Below are positions 3,326 to 62,007 of a stretch of 64,000 nucleotides of DNA, piece by piece; within the stretch, counting starts at the first letter, position 1; every line of letters begins with the position of its first letter. Under the pieces are notes generated by a model. The model made no database searches. It saw only the letters and a list, made by a program, of their open reading frames with translations, and was not told the origin of the DNA. A program made the translations under genes and the position numbers. This DNA is from an uncultured Gemmatimonadota bacterium. Its GTDB lineage: Bacteria; Gemmatimonadota; Gemmatimonadetes; Gemmatimonadales; Gemmatimonadaceae. The DNA lies in assembly GCA_903882745.1 (NCBI GenBank), contig CAIRYG010000014.1:186001-250000 (forward strand). Reading direction: 5' to 3'.

Positions 3326-5541
3326 AAGCTCGTCGCGAGCGCCAGCGTCACATTGCGCCGCGGCTCCGGACGGAAGAAACTGGAGTTCGCCGCCTCCGCG
3401 TAGAGCGCGTTGGTGAGGTTGTTCACCGACACCGTCAGGTCTTGGTGGGTGGAGCCAATCTGCCAGCCGCGAATCCCGCCGCGTAGCGCGTGCACCGTGA
3501 AGGCCGGAAGTGTGTTGCCAATCGGGCTGGTTCCCGACGCGATGTCTTTCTGCTCGCCGTTACGGCGCACCGCGTACTCAATCCAGAACCGATCCACCGT
3601 CCACGAGGCCGCAAGATTGAGCTTGCTGGCAAACGTATCGCCGATCGGGATCTGCGGATTCAGCACATTGGCCGACGCGATGCTCGAATAGTTCGCACGC
3701 AGCGCGAGGCCATGGTCCAGGAGGAGGCCAGCGCCCAGCTCACCGCCGCGGGTGCGAATGCGACCCACGTTCACGTTCTGATACACGGGGAGTCGGTTCT
3801 GTGTCGCGCCAGTGGGCACCACGAGAATGCCGTTCGAGATGTCGTTATTGAACACCGAGAGTTCCGCGGTGAAACGCGAGCGACGGTACTTGAGCCCGAG
3901 GTCCGCGTTGATGCTCGACTCTGGCTTCAGGTCGGGTGACGCAATCTGATAGGCACTCCCCTCTGGCGTCGGACCATTGAAAAACCGTTCCACCAGATTT
4001 GGCGCGCGGAAGCCGCTGCCGTACGTCGCCACGAGGTTGAGGTCGTCCGTCAGGCGCACCAGCGCATTGGCAGCATAGACTCCCGTGCTGTTGCCATGTC
4101 CTGGAATCGCGGCCGTAATCCCCGGCGTGTACTTGGTTGCACTCTCGACCTGCTGCACGCGTCCCCCAACAATCACGGTGATGCGATCGGTGGCAGCGAT
4201 GCTCCCCTGGGCAAAGGCGCCAATGCTAGAGAGTGTGGCGTTGGGTACCGACGACTGCGTGGACGCCTGCGGGTGCGGCGGTCCAAACCCGATGACAGTC
4301 TGCGTGCTCGTGTCGGTGTTGAACGAACGATCAACAAACGCGTCGGCGCCGTAGGTGAGCACCACGCGCGAGAGCGCCTTCACGAACTCCAGGCGCGAGC
4401 CGACGGTCGCGAGGTCGGTGTAGTTCCCTGTCTGAATCGACACGCCCGCGCCGGGCGGCGTGCCCGGCCCGAACGGGATGAAAATGTCCTGCGCCAAATT
4501 GCGCCGATTGCGCTGTGAGTAGGCGGTGAGTTCGACCTTGTCGGCGAACGGCAACTGCATCGCGGTGCGTGTGTAGCCGGCACTCACCTTCTGGAAATCC
4601 TGATGCGGATATTGAATTTGGATCTTGGTCGCGTCGCCGCCGAGGAGCGCGTTCGGGATATAGCCAAAGCCGGCGTTGTCGGCCAGGTAGCGCTCCACCT
4701 TCACGAAGGCCGAACCACCCGTCGCGCTGCGCCACGCCAGGGACCCATTCAGTGAGTTGTCCTTCACGCCGCCATCGAGCACTTCGGTGTCGTTGGCGAG
4801 GGTGAGCTTGCCGAACGTCCCCTGCGGCGCCGAGTAGTTACCCACGCGGCGCGTGCTCGCACCAAAGCGCCAGGCAAAATCACCGGCCGACCCCATAAGC
4901 GAGCCCTCGCCCTTTCCGAGCGCACCACTGCTGCCGTACTGATAGGCGGCATGGCCACCCATGGTCGCGGGGCCGCCGCGCACGAACGGAGCCTGCGTAA
5001 TCAGATTGATCACACCACCGATGGCGTCGGTTCCGTAGAGCACGGATGCGGGTCCGCGAACCACTTCGATGCGCTCAATCGCCGACACATCAACGAGCGC
5101 GGGGAGTTCACCAAAATCCTGCTGGCGACGCGAGTTGTTCAAGCGCACGCCATCTTCGAGTAACAGAATCCGCTGCCCACGTTGGCCACGAATCGAGGGG
5201 CGATTTTGATTTGGGCCCACGCCAATCACATCCACGCCCGGAAGTTCACGGAGCAAGTCGGCGGCATTCGCCGGTGTTCGCTCACGCACGGCGCTCGTGT
5301 CGAGCACGCTCACCGGCGTTGGGACATCGTGCACGTCGGTGGCCTGACGTGTGGCAGTTACCGTCACCGGGCGCAGTTGCGTTGAACGCATTGCAGCCGA
5401 ATCCGCAACGGGCGTGGGCTTAGCGGTCGGCTGCTGCGCCAACAACGCGACGGGCGCCAACGTGGCAAGCGCCAACGCGGCAAGCGCAGTGCGCGTGGCA
5501 AAGCGGAGGGCGGCGCAGCGGAGAGAGAAAATCGAGGGCAT
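3322..5541 (-). CDS. TonB-dependent outer membrane receptor
   Basis: About 739 residues: a signal peptide ending near LLAQQ, a TonB-box-like segment (PVTVTATR), a plug domain with RGQRGQRILLLEDGVRLN and IERIEVVRGPASVLYGTDAIGG, and a long beta-barrel ending in Phe (LALATSF) as expected for Bam-inserted barrels. It resembles receptors for siderophores, heme or cobalamin; the ligand cannot be told from sequence. ATG 5541 is preferred because it directly precedes a standard signal peptide; GTG 5565 in the same frame would add eight residues. Neither has a clear ribosome site. It follows the NAD-salvage/two-component operon by about 140 bases on the same strand. Confidence 0.9.
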   Translation of the reverse strand: MPSIFSLRCAALRFATRTALAALALATLAPVALLAQQPTAKPTPVADSAAMRSTQLRPVTVTATRQATDVHDVPTPVSVLDTSAVRERTPANAADLLRELPGVDVIGVGPNQNRPSIRGQRGQRILLLEDGVRLNNSRRQQDFGELPALVDVSAIERIEVVRGPASVLYGTDAIGGVINLITQAPFVRGGPATMGGHAAYQYGSSGALGKGEGSLMGSAGDFAWRFGASTRRVGNYSAPQGTFGKLTLANDTEVLDGGVKDNSLNGSLAWRSATGGSAFVKVERYLADNAGFGYIPNALLGGDATKIQIQYPHQDFQKVSAGYTRTAMQLPFADKVELTAYSQRNRRNLAQDIFIPFGPGTPPGAGVSIQTGNYTDLATVGSRLEFVKALSRVVLTYGADAFVDRSFNTDTSTQTVIGFGPPHPQASTQSSVPNATLSSIGAFAQGSIAATDRITVIVGGRVQQVESATKYTPGITAAIPGHGNSTGVYAANALVRLTDDLNLVATYGSGFRAPNLVERFFNGPTPEGSAYQIASPDLKPESSINADLGLKYRRSRFTAELSVFNNDISNGILVVPTGATQNRLPVYQNVNVGRIRTRGGELGAGLLLDHGLALRANYSSIASANVLNPQIPIGDTFASKLNLAASWTVDRFWIEYAVRRNGEQKDIASGTSPIGNTLPAFTVHALRGGIRGWQIGSTHQDLTVSVNNLTNALYAEAANSSFFRPEPRRNVTLALATSF

Positions 5542-59818: not shown

Positions 59819-60421
59819 TTAGCGCGCGGTGACCTCGCGTGTGCCGCGGAAGGCGCGCACGCCGTCGTCGACGTCATGCAGCAGGAGCAGGGCGTCGGGG
59901 TTGCCGTAGCGGCGCATGAGGTCGCGCATCATCTGTTGTTCGCCGCCCCAGGGGTAGCCGAACACGACGTCAAAGTCGTCGAGGGCTTTCCCGAGCTGCA
60001 GGTAGCCCGACTCGCCGCTCCCGGTGGTGGAGGTCCAGGGCTCGTGCTTTTGTGGGGTGAAGGCGAAGCCGGTGGGGAGGAAGCTCCCTTCCACGAAGGT
60101 CGCAGCAGAGTCGAAGCGTTGGGCGAGGGTGCGGGCCGTGTCGACCAGGGCGCCGTCGAGCTCAATCCCGTACGACTCGTAGCCCAGCAGGTCGGCCATG
60201 ATCGTGATCACGCCGCTTGCGGAGCCCCATTCGAGGAATCGGAGCCCCGGTGCGCGGTGGGTGATCAGCGCCTGTTGCACGCGCGCGTAGTCTGCGGCGA
60301 CAAAGGGGTGAAAGCGGTGGTCGCGCACCTCGAGTTCAAAGCGCTCGAAAATGTCCCAGCCCGCCTCGCAGATAGCGTCGAGTCGGGCGAGCAGGGGGGT
60401 GTCGAGGGCGGGGAGGGGCAT
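59819..60421 (-). CDS. SAM-dependent methyltransferase-like protein
   Basis: 200 residues. The Rossmann-like motif I reads FLEWGSASGVITIMADLLG, motif II is YGIELDGALVD, and DVVFGYPWGG corresponds to the post-IV region. It resembles class I methyltransferases of uncharacterised type; no substrate-specific domain is seen. It lies 31 bases from the UbiB-like gene on the same strand, so they may be co-transcribed. Confidence 0.75.
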   Translation of the reverse strand: MPLPALDTPLLARLDAICEAGWDIFERFELEVRDHRFHPFVAADYARVQQALITHRAPGLRFLEWGSASGVITIMADLLGYESYGIELDGALVDTARTLAQRFDSAATFVEGSFLPTGFAFTPQKHEPWTSTTGSGESGYLQLGKALDDFDVVFGYPWGGEQQMMRDLMRRYGNPDALLLLHDVDDGVRAFRGTREVTAR

Positions 60422-60458
60422 GCGGGGAATCTACCGTCAGCGCGGGGGGTGAAACGCA

Positions 60459-60495
60459 CACCGCCCCCGTCAACCGAAGGCTGGCGGGGGCGGTG
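60459..60495. terminator. Hairpin between tRNA and methyltransferase gene
   Basis: An 11-bp stem CACCGCCCCCG/CGGGGGCGGTG with a larger loop that can pair further. Read on the minus strand it follows the tRNA and is followed by GTTTCA; probably ends the tRNA transcript. Confidence 0.6.
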
Positions 60496-60571
60496 CGGTC
60501 GTACTTCAGACTGCTCCTCTGCGAGGATGTACGATAGAATTTCCCCGAAAAATCTGCAAGACCCAACCCCG

Positions 60572-60653
60572 TATCCGTGACGGGATTTGAACCCGTATGC
60601 CTCACGGCACTCCTTTCGCAGAGGAGCGTGTCTACCAGTTCCACCACACGGAC
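60572..60653 (-). tRNA. Class II tRNA, Leu-like body, anticodon GCG
   Basis: Read on the minus strand it folds into a full cloverleaf: acceptor GTCCGTG/CACGGAT (G1-U72 wobble), D arm GTGG with AACTGGTAGACAC as in leucine tRNAs, anticodon stem CTCCT/AGGAG with loop CTGCGAA, long variable arm TGCC-GTGA-GGCA, T arm ACGGG-TTCAAAT-CCCGT, discriminator A73. No CCA is encoded. Body and A73 point to leucine, but the loop gives anticodon GCG, complementary to the Arg codon CGC. One base (GAG to GCG) would separate it from a normal Leu tRNA. The tRNA gene itself is clear; its amino acid is not. Confidence 0.85.
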
Positions 60654-60878
60654 CGGTGACACCCGACGTATCGGGTGCAACGCCTCGGCTGCGACCAAAG
60701 CGCGGTTGGATGCCGTAGAGAATACAGGTATCCCGCCCATAACCCGTCACCAAAATCACTCACGATGCATCATTTCACCGCCCGGTGGTGTTGTCCCCCG
60801 CCTACCCCCACCCCTGCCACTCTGGCATATTTAGAGGGTACGTGCTCTCCCAAACACAAAACAAGCGAGCCCGCCCCA

Positions 60879-61997
60879 ATGGCCGACGTCGTTTCCGCAG
60901 CCGCTCCGCTCAAGCGCACCCCGTTCCACGACATCCACGTTGCCCTGGGTGCCAAGATCGTCCCCTTCGCCGGCTACGAAATGCCGGTCCAGTACCCCGC
61001 CGGGATCACCGCCGAACACAACGCCGTGCGCACGAGCTGCGGCCTGTTCGACGTGAGCCACATGGGCGAGTTCCTCGTCACCGGCCCGCAAGCACTGGAG
61101 TTCGTCAACTACGTCACCACCAACAACGTCGCCGCGCTCGCCATCGGACAGGTGCACTACTCCGGCATCCTCAACGACCGCGGCACGTTCGAAGACGACT
61201 GCCTGGTCTACCGCGCCGCCGACCACCTCATGATGGTCGTCAACGCGTCCAACAAAGACAAAGACTTCGCCCACATCTCGCAGCACCTCTCCAAGTTCGA
61301 CGCCACGCTCGAAGACATCTCCGATCGCATTGCCCTCCTCGCCCTCCAAGGCCCGAAGGCGCAAGAGATTCTCCAAGCACTCACCGACGTCAACCTCGAC
61401 GCGATCAAGTACTACCACTTCGAACAGGGCATGGTCGCCGGCAAGGGCCCCATGGTCGTCTCGCGCACAGGCTACACAGGCGAAGATGGCTTTGAGCTCT
61501 ACTTCGATGTCGCCGACGCCGCGCACATCTGGAACGCCCTCATGCAGCACGGCAACGTCACCCCCACCGGGCTCGGCTGCCGCGACTCGCTGCGCCTCGA
61601 AATGGGGATGGCGCTCTACGGCAACGACATCGACGACACCGTCACGCCGCTCGAAGCGAACCTCCAGTGGCTCGTGAAAATGAAGAAGGGCGACTTTGTC
61701 GGGAAGCGGGCACTCGAAGCGCAGAAAGCCGCCGGAATCCCGCAGAAACTCGTGGGCTTCACGATCGCCGATCGCGCCTTCCCACGGCACGGCTATCCGG
61801 TGTTCGTGAACGGCCTGCCGAGTGGCGAAGTGCGCAGTGGCACGAGCTCGCCGAGCTGCGGGATCGCCATTGGCACTTGCTACGTGCCCACCGATCACGC
61901 CAAGCCCGGCAACACACTCGACGTCGATATCCGCGGCAAGCGCTTCACCGGCACGATCGTCGAACTCCCGTTCTACAAGAACGCGTCCCATCGCTAA
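60879..61997 (+). CDS. gcvT: Aminomethyltransferase (glycine cleavage system T protein)
   Basis: 372 residues from ATG 60879. GcvT pattern: [40 protein letters not shown] (Asp in FDVSHMGE), folate-binding [11 protein letters not shown], and [16 protein letters not shown]. It transfers the methylene from the H-protein-bound aminomethyl group to THF. gcvH and gcvP are not in the window. No glycine riboswitch pattern was seen in the 225 bases upstream. A sigma-54 regulator gene starts ten bases downstream. Confidence 0.95.
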
Positions 61998-62007
61998 AGG
62001 CACGGAG

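Follow-up and report, generated by a model that had tools for sequence, protein, structure and literature searches.

An intact leucine-type tRNA with a GCG anticodon lies beside a predicted antisense RNA that covaries with it in Gemmatimonadota

Results

The window (the whole 64,000-nucleotide stretch analysed here, positions 186,001 to 250,000 of contig CAIRYG010000014.1) belongs to a genome of 3.06 Mb in 14 contigs from an uncultured Gemmatimonadaceae bacterium. It holds a tRNA gene on the minus strand together with promoter-like sites, predicted hairpins and a nearby complement of the tRNA's own anticodon arm. The order of these elements (P1, a leader with hairpins H1 and H2, the tRNA, P2, an antisense RNA and a terminator) is best explained as a two-RNA cassette, with the following features:

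60719..60753, minus strand: P1, promoter-like region of the tRNA transcript, with TTGGTGAC at 60746-60753 and TATTCT at 60719-60724
60680..60703, minus strand: leader hairpin H1, predicted by folding, whose loop TCGCAG (60689-60694) complements anticodon-loop positions 32-37
60659..60678, minus strand: leader hairpin H2, predicted by folding, directly before the tRNA and found in clades A-C
60572..60653, minus strand: leucine-type class II tRNA with anticodon GCG (ARAGORN and Rfam), helices all paired, conserved in relatives
60610-60626, minus strand: anticodon stem-loop of this tRNA, with the anticodon at 60617-60619
60531..60559, minus strand: P2, promoter-like site of the antisense RNA, with TTGCAG (60554-60559), 17 nt, and TATCGT (60531-60536)
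60513..60524, minus strand: antisense core TCGCAGAGGAGC, a 12-nt perfect complement of tRNA positions 26-37
60455..60528, minus strand: predicted antisense small RNA, from its putative P2 start to the end of the terminator hairpin
60455..60496, minus strand: GC-rich terminator-like hairpin, predicted by folding, with an equivalent in relatives and without a long T run
60472..60792, no strand assigned: 321-bp unit missing from the sister genome G014, in which the flanks 59845-60471 and 60793-62000 adjoin

ARAGORN called a tRNA with anticodon GCG at 60571-60653 (minus strand), and RF00005 matched 60572-60653 (minus strand) with 55 bits (E 8.5e-11, Rfam). Every helix pairs, as the initial annotation had claimed: the acceptor stem 7/7 (G1-U72 being a wobble pair), the anticodon stem 5/5 and the T stem 5/5. 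The anticodon loop is CUGCGAA, the variable region measures 13 nt, N73 is A, and CCA is not encoded in the gene. The D arm and A73, previously described as leucine-like, indeed belong to a leucine-type core with A14, A15, U48 (A15-U48) and the leucine D-loop layout. With the anticodon arm masked, the closest tRNA of the same genome was tRNA-Leu(GAG), at 75% body identity, followed by the other leucine tRNAs (67-69%), whereas tRNA-Arg reached at most 58%. The tRNA thus has the RF00005 match and the body of the leucine isotype, but its anticodon is GCG and not one of the leucine-decoding NAG or YAA; nor is the body of arginine type, since the D loop is leucine-like and lacks the A20 common to the genome's own tRNA-Arg genes. 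Gene prediction, Rfam and body identity all confirm a real, intact leucine-type class II tRNA with a foreign anticodon. The initial annotation had recognised this leucine body and its GCG; it had missed the tRNA family, the antisense RNA and the leader hairpin described below, and its alternatives of sequence error or pseudo-tRNA did not hold.

The genome has five leucine isoacceptors (CAA, CAG, GAG, TAA and TAG) and arginine tRNAs with ACG, CCG, CCT and TCT, so that Leu(GAG) and Arg(ACG) both stand beside the GCG tRNA. Since CGC is already covered by tRNA-Arg(ACG) and these sets are in place, the GCG tRNA is an extra one that fills no gap. CGC is a common codon here, as had been proposed: in the 43 ORFs sampled from the window it makes up 56% of arginine codons and ranks fifth among all codons, behind GCG (1) and GCC (2) and ahead of GGC (6) and GAC (7). 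In gcvT, which adjoins the cassette, the majority of conserved arginine positions are CGC; a change of the genetic code at CGC was rejected on the strength of these mostly CGC-encoded arginines of GcvT. We saw no dedicated second LeuRS: each genome, with or without odd tRNAs, has one ordinary LeuRS, except that G017 (78% complete) gave no full-length match. Downstream of the cassette, a predicted 200-aa protein (59819-60421, minus strand) had no Pfam match. Elsewhere in Gemmatimonadota, the ordinary Leu(GAG) gene often lies directly before Thr(CGU) (L040-L060, e.g. L038, L058 and L060).

The window tRNA has counterparts at 81-86% identity in three genomes, two from its own genus and one from a different genus. 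All three carry GCG on anticodon stems that differ by compensatory substitutions; sequencing error is excluded because these relatives keep the GCG loop while the stems have changed compensatorily. The wider family was collected with patterns requiring a leucine D arm followed by a non-leucine anticodon, applied to 179 genomes at family level and 395 at phylum level, the relatives being Gemmatimonadota metagenome-assembled genomes. This yielded at least 24 distinct intact leucine-bodied tRNAs with non-leucine anticodons in 21 genomes, one tRNA being common to two of them. Carriers make up 18 of the 179 family genomes, and 9 of 18 in the window's genus have at least one. At least seven foreign anticodons were found on intact bodies, namely GCG (Arg), GUG (His), CGC and GGC (both Ala), GCC (Gly), GAC (Val) and GUC (Asp), and the codons that they read rank 1, 2, 5, 6, 7, 15 and 28 in the window sample; a decayed member carries CAC. 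Neither stop nor leucine anticodons were found on these bodies by the patterns, which could have detected stops.

Among the 21 tabulated members, all keep A73, U48, A14, A15 and the leucine D arm, and helices are fully paired except in G001 GAC (anticodon stem 4/5) and G023 (T stem 4/5). Positions 34 and 36 are G or C in 24/24 members, and U33 is kept in 21/24, the other three having C33. None shows the G3-U70 pair or the G-1 and C73 that AlaRS and HisRS, respectively, require. Body trees are weakly supported, yet sister bodies clearly differ in anticodon: G198 (GCG) and G213 (GCC) are 93% identical outside the anticodon arm, and G029 (GCG) groups among GUG members. One genome (G002) has three GCG leucine-type tRNAs of two clades (L087, L085 and L148), each with its own antisense.

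When GTDB was scanned with a pattern for GCG leucine-type tRNAs, clear tRNAs turned up almost only in Gemmatimonadota; outside the phylum, a single alphaproteobacterial tRNA seemed genuine, the remaining matches looking like chance or unlike tRNAs. This alphaproteobacterial tRNA (L075, minus strand, near 5411-5440 of a metagenome-assembled genome) encodes its CCA, has a very long variable arm, was missed by ARAGORN, and had no such antisense noticed nearby. Four viral contigs from IMG/VR (L129, L130, L131 and L132) contain sequences that resemble GCG leucine-type tRNAs, in some cases with an imperfect acceptor stem. A phage origin was considered on account of these contigs and rejected, since their structures are imperfect and inspection showed no such antisense. 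A different odd leucine-bodied type was seen in two genera (L152 and L153, tRNA at ~1494-1579; G420 and G155), with anticodon UGG (Pro), C33, a small lysine-rich ORF after it and no antisense to the anticodon arm.

Downstream of the tRNA, nearly all members share a same-strand arrangement of a promoter-like site, a complement of the anticodon arm at the expected transcript start and a terminator-like hairpin. A perfect antisense match of 10-16 nt lies within 200 nt downstream in 18 of the 24 members; for 87 ordinary tRNAs of the same loci, the longest was 8 nt. When tRNAs and antisense RNAs were re-paired at random, the duplex energy of the own pairs at the anticodon arm was reached in 0/20000 permutations (z -13.7), and again in 0/20000 when re-pairing was confined to the ten GCG members, which differ only in their stems. 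Covariation strongly supports the predicted pairing of antisense RNA and tRNA. The clade C members (the GUG members and G029) differ in that the antisense RNA is predicted to pair with the variable arm plus the anticodon loop (-33 to -42 kcal/mol). The sole clear failure to track the anticodon is G254 (GCC), which pairs poorly with its downstream RNA, an RNA that resembles that of the GUC member G286. For the window itself, the antisense RNA fits its own tRNA only moderately better than tRNA-Tyr (-23.7 vs -20.6 kcal/mol). A role for the tRNA as a decoy for an antisense RNA toxic to an ordinary tRNA was judged unlikely, there being no ordinary GCG tRNA and the antisense fitting its own tRNA best.

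The antisense RNA would be transcribed from P2. A TTGAC-N16-18-YANNNT motif occupies this position in 16/21 members and in 0.5% of shuffles; the window's copy is weak (7/12) and does not appear in a standard promoter scan listing. The region 60456-60531 folds at -42.8 kcal/mol (z -4.9). Upstream of the tRNA, a two-part P1 motif occurs at 97-113 nt in 15/21 members and in 0.6% of shuffles, a control that is optimistic because the motif was derived from these same member sequences. Given this position of P1, the tRNA transcript probably includes the leader. The P1 and P2 motifs look different from each other.

In clades A-C, two hairpins precede the tRNA, and the loop of H1 complements positions 32-36 of its own tRNA in 13/13 GCG or GUG members: it reads CGCAG wherever the anticodon is GCG and CACAG wherever it is GUG, and within clade C the loop changes from CACAG to CGCAG alongside the change of anticodon from GUG to GCG. 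In the third G002 copy (L148), the anticodon loop is CCGCGAA, with C33 instead of U33, and both the leader loop (TCGCGG) and the antisense (TTCGCGG) carry the compensatory base; at the level of sequence, both partners covary here with a position that is otherwise nearly invariant. A clear leader match to the anticodon loop is absent in clades D and E and in GUC members.

The cassette appears dispensable. The 321-bp unit is missing from G014, a genome whose GcvT is 98% identical to that of the window; GTC stands at both edges of the unit in the window (60469-60471 and 60793-60795). G014 retains one arm of the terminator hairpin, a remnant that points to deletion there and not to insertion in the window. 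Two decayed copies were found (at L126, ~630-730, and at L128/L121), a second GGC copy in G051 and a CAC copy in G010: the former has a broken 5' acceptor strand and an antisense that is no longer recognisable, and the latter is without its T arm. Neighbouring genes differ in every lineage, and no conserved protein gene, nuclease genes included, was found beside the cassettes. No Rfam family other than tRNA, and no T-box model, matched the window locus or the loci of six relatives.

Discussion

Bacterial LeuRS reads the tertiary core, the variable arm and A73, and not the anticodon, whereas AlaRS requires G3-U70 and HisRS requires G-1 and C73. Leucine is thus the one charge that would fit all members, because LeuRS ignores the anticodon and the elements for AlaRS and HisRS are absent. 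The chimeric tRNA would most likely be charged by the ordinary LeuRS, and insertion of leucine at CGC, among the commonest codons, is the best inference for a free window tRNA. Such a tRNA, placing leucine at codons this common, should be very harmful. The antisense RNA, from its own promoter just downstream, would pair through its 5' part with the anticodon arm and sequester the tRNA, with the variable arm and anticodon loop as the target in clade C. The leader hairpin, which displays the complement of the anticodon loop, may hold the anticodon in the precursor too. A harmful missense tRNA would then be held silent for as long as the antisense RNA is present and keeps pace with it, and this harm would explain why the antisense RNA and the leader trap are kept beside the tRNA.

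We give an even chance to this reading of a missense leucine tRNA silenced by an antisense RNA and a leader, in a toxin-antitoxin-like module made of two RNAs. A little short of that, and tentatively, we propose a new class of RNA-only toxin-antitoxin systems that pair a missense leucine tRNA, as a toxin directed at one of the most frequent codons of the host, with a covarying antisense RNA as antitoxin; the latter would lock the anticodon arm, and the anticodon switches between lineages. Patchiness, lack of synteny, decay, loss of the whole unit and changing anticodons fit such a module. Leucine charging, decoding, toxicity, expression and pairing in the cell are what we infer from these comparisons.

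The same anatomy is predicted if mistranslation is useful and regulated, such that the leucine-charged tRNA is released under stress to diversify the proteome and the antisense RNA is a switch instead of an antitoxin. Unlike P1 and P2 motifs would be expected under separate control of the two RNAs, and tRNA-ProX of Streptomyces offers a precedent for encoded mistranslation (PMC11415595). We nevertheless consider this explanation unlikely, since patchy occurrence, decayed copies, many anticodons and loss from a sister genome better fit a dispensable module, and replacing arginine or aspartate with leucine at very common codons would be severe.

Rather less probable is a stable RNA that does not decode, acting as a scaffold or as a non-ribosomal leucine donor, whose anticodon arm is only the kissing partner of the antisense RNA and drifts freely. 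It would account for the joint change of anticodon and antisense and for the three members with C33, but the anticodons are far from random (G or C at both outer positions throughout, neither stop nor leucine) and fall on common codons, and U33 in most members, the tertiary core and A73 have been kept. We regard as improbable a decoy or spare tRNA in conflicts with phages, for instance the bait of an anticodon nuclease, with its dose set by the antisense RNA. The patchy distribution, diversifying anticodons and absence of synteny are as such a role would have it, whereas no nuclease or other conserved gene accompanies the loci, and GCG, which bacterial tRNAs do not normally carry, would mimic no ordinary target.

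ArgRS recognises C35, and A73 is compatible with it. The window tRNA, in which GCG supplies C35, might therefore be a disguised arginine tRNA, charged with arginine and redundant as a reader of CGC. This is very improbable: the D loop without the arginine-type A20 and the low identity to tRNA-Arg argue against it, the same bodies are found with His, Ala, Gly and Asp anticodons and lack the identity elements for the corresponding synthetases, and the antisense RNA would be left unexplained. Finally, a sequence error (GAG to GCG), a mutated Leu(GAG) or a pseudo-tRNA, two of them raised by the initial annotation, has a negligible chance despite the decayed copies in relatives, being refuted by the second, normal Leu(GAG) in the genome and by conservation of GCG with covarying stems in relatives.

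Bacteria were thought to match tRNA body and anticodon, with few exceptions such as tRNA-ProX. In Streptomyces and Kitasatospora, these tRNAs combine a proline body with an alanine, asparagine or threonine anticodon, have A33 and A34, and are co-encoded with the synthetase ProRSx (PMC11415595). The present family is likewise an encoded bacterial family with the body of one amino acid and several foreign anticodons, expected to mistranslate. It differs in its leucine body, mostly retained U33 and single ordinary LeuRS, the partner being an antisense RNA and a leader instead of a synthetase; none of the proline body, A33, A34 and ProRSx is seen with the window tRNA or its relatives.

Type VIII toxin-antitoxin systems (SdsR-RyeA, CreTA) are RNA-RNA pairs (PMC10767807), and CreT sequesters rare tRNAs (PMC8501985). 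No tRNA acts as the toxin among the type VIII systems described in these two sources (PMC10767807, PMC8501985). At the sequence level, the window locus has two adjacent predicted RNAs with strong complementarity; if both are transcribed, the components would be RNAs encoded next to each other, as in these systems. CreT acts on the tRNA supply, and both kinds are patchy and dispensable. Here, however, the proposed toxin is a missense tRNA bound by antisense RNA at its anticodon arm, and we saw no Cas component. In type I pairs such as ShoB-OhsC and TisB-IstR, a harmful transcript is silenced by a short antisense RNA whose promoter lies close by; the cassette would work likewise, but on a tRNA in place of the mRNA of a toxic peptide. 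T-box leaders show the complement of an anticodon in a loop, as the leader here does, although the match here covers 5-6 nt of the anticodon loop and not a codon, and the leader precedes the tRNA gene itself. Nematode tRNAs with long variable arms and non-leucine anticodons also have a leucine-type body, and we know of no antisense partner for them.

In the open-access literature, we found no paper that deals with missense tRNAs of Gemmatimonadota or with an antisense RNA devoted to the anticodon arm of a tRNA, and we know of no earlier antisense RNA that serves a single tRNA. A chimeric tRNA accompanied by an antisense RNA that covaries with it matches none of the kinds that we found described in that literature, an earlier description elsewhere being possible.

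Taken together, a Gemmatimonadota family has leucine tRNAs with at least seven foreign anticodons, nearly each of them beside a predicted antisense RNA that tracks the anticodon. If the proposed mechanism is true, the cassette would hold the first antisense RNA known to us that serves a single tRNA; it would also turn the translation machinery itself into a toxin in a new way and act as a natural switch for codon-specific mistranslation. Should toxicity be shown, the cassette would stand beside type VIII systems by the nature of its parts. It also makes directly testable how a cell could cope with a tRNA that rewrites a very common codon.
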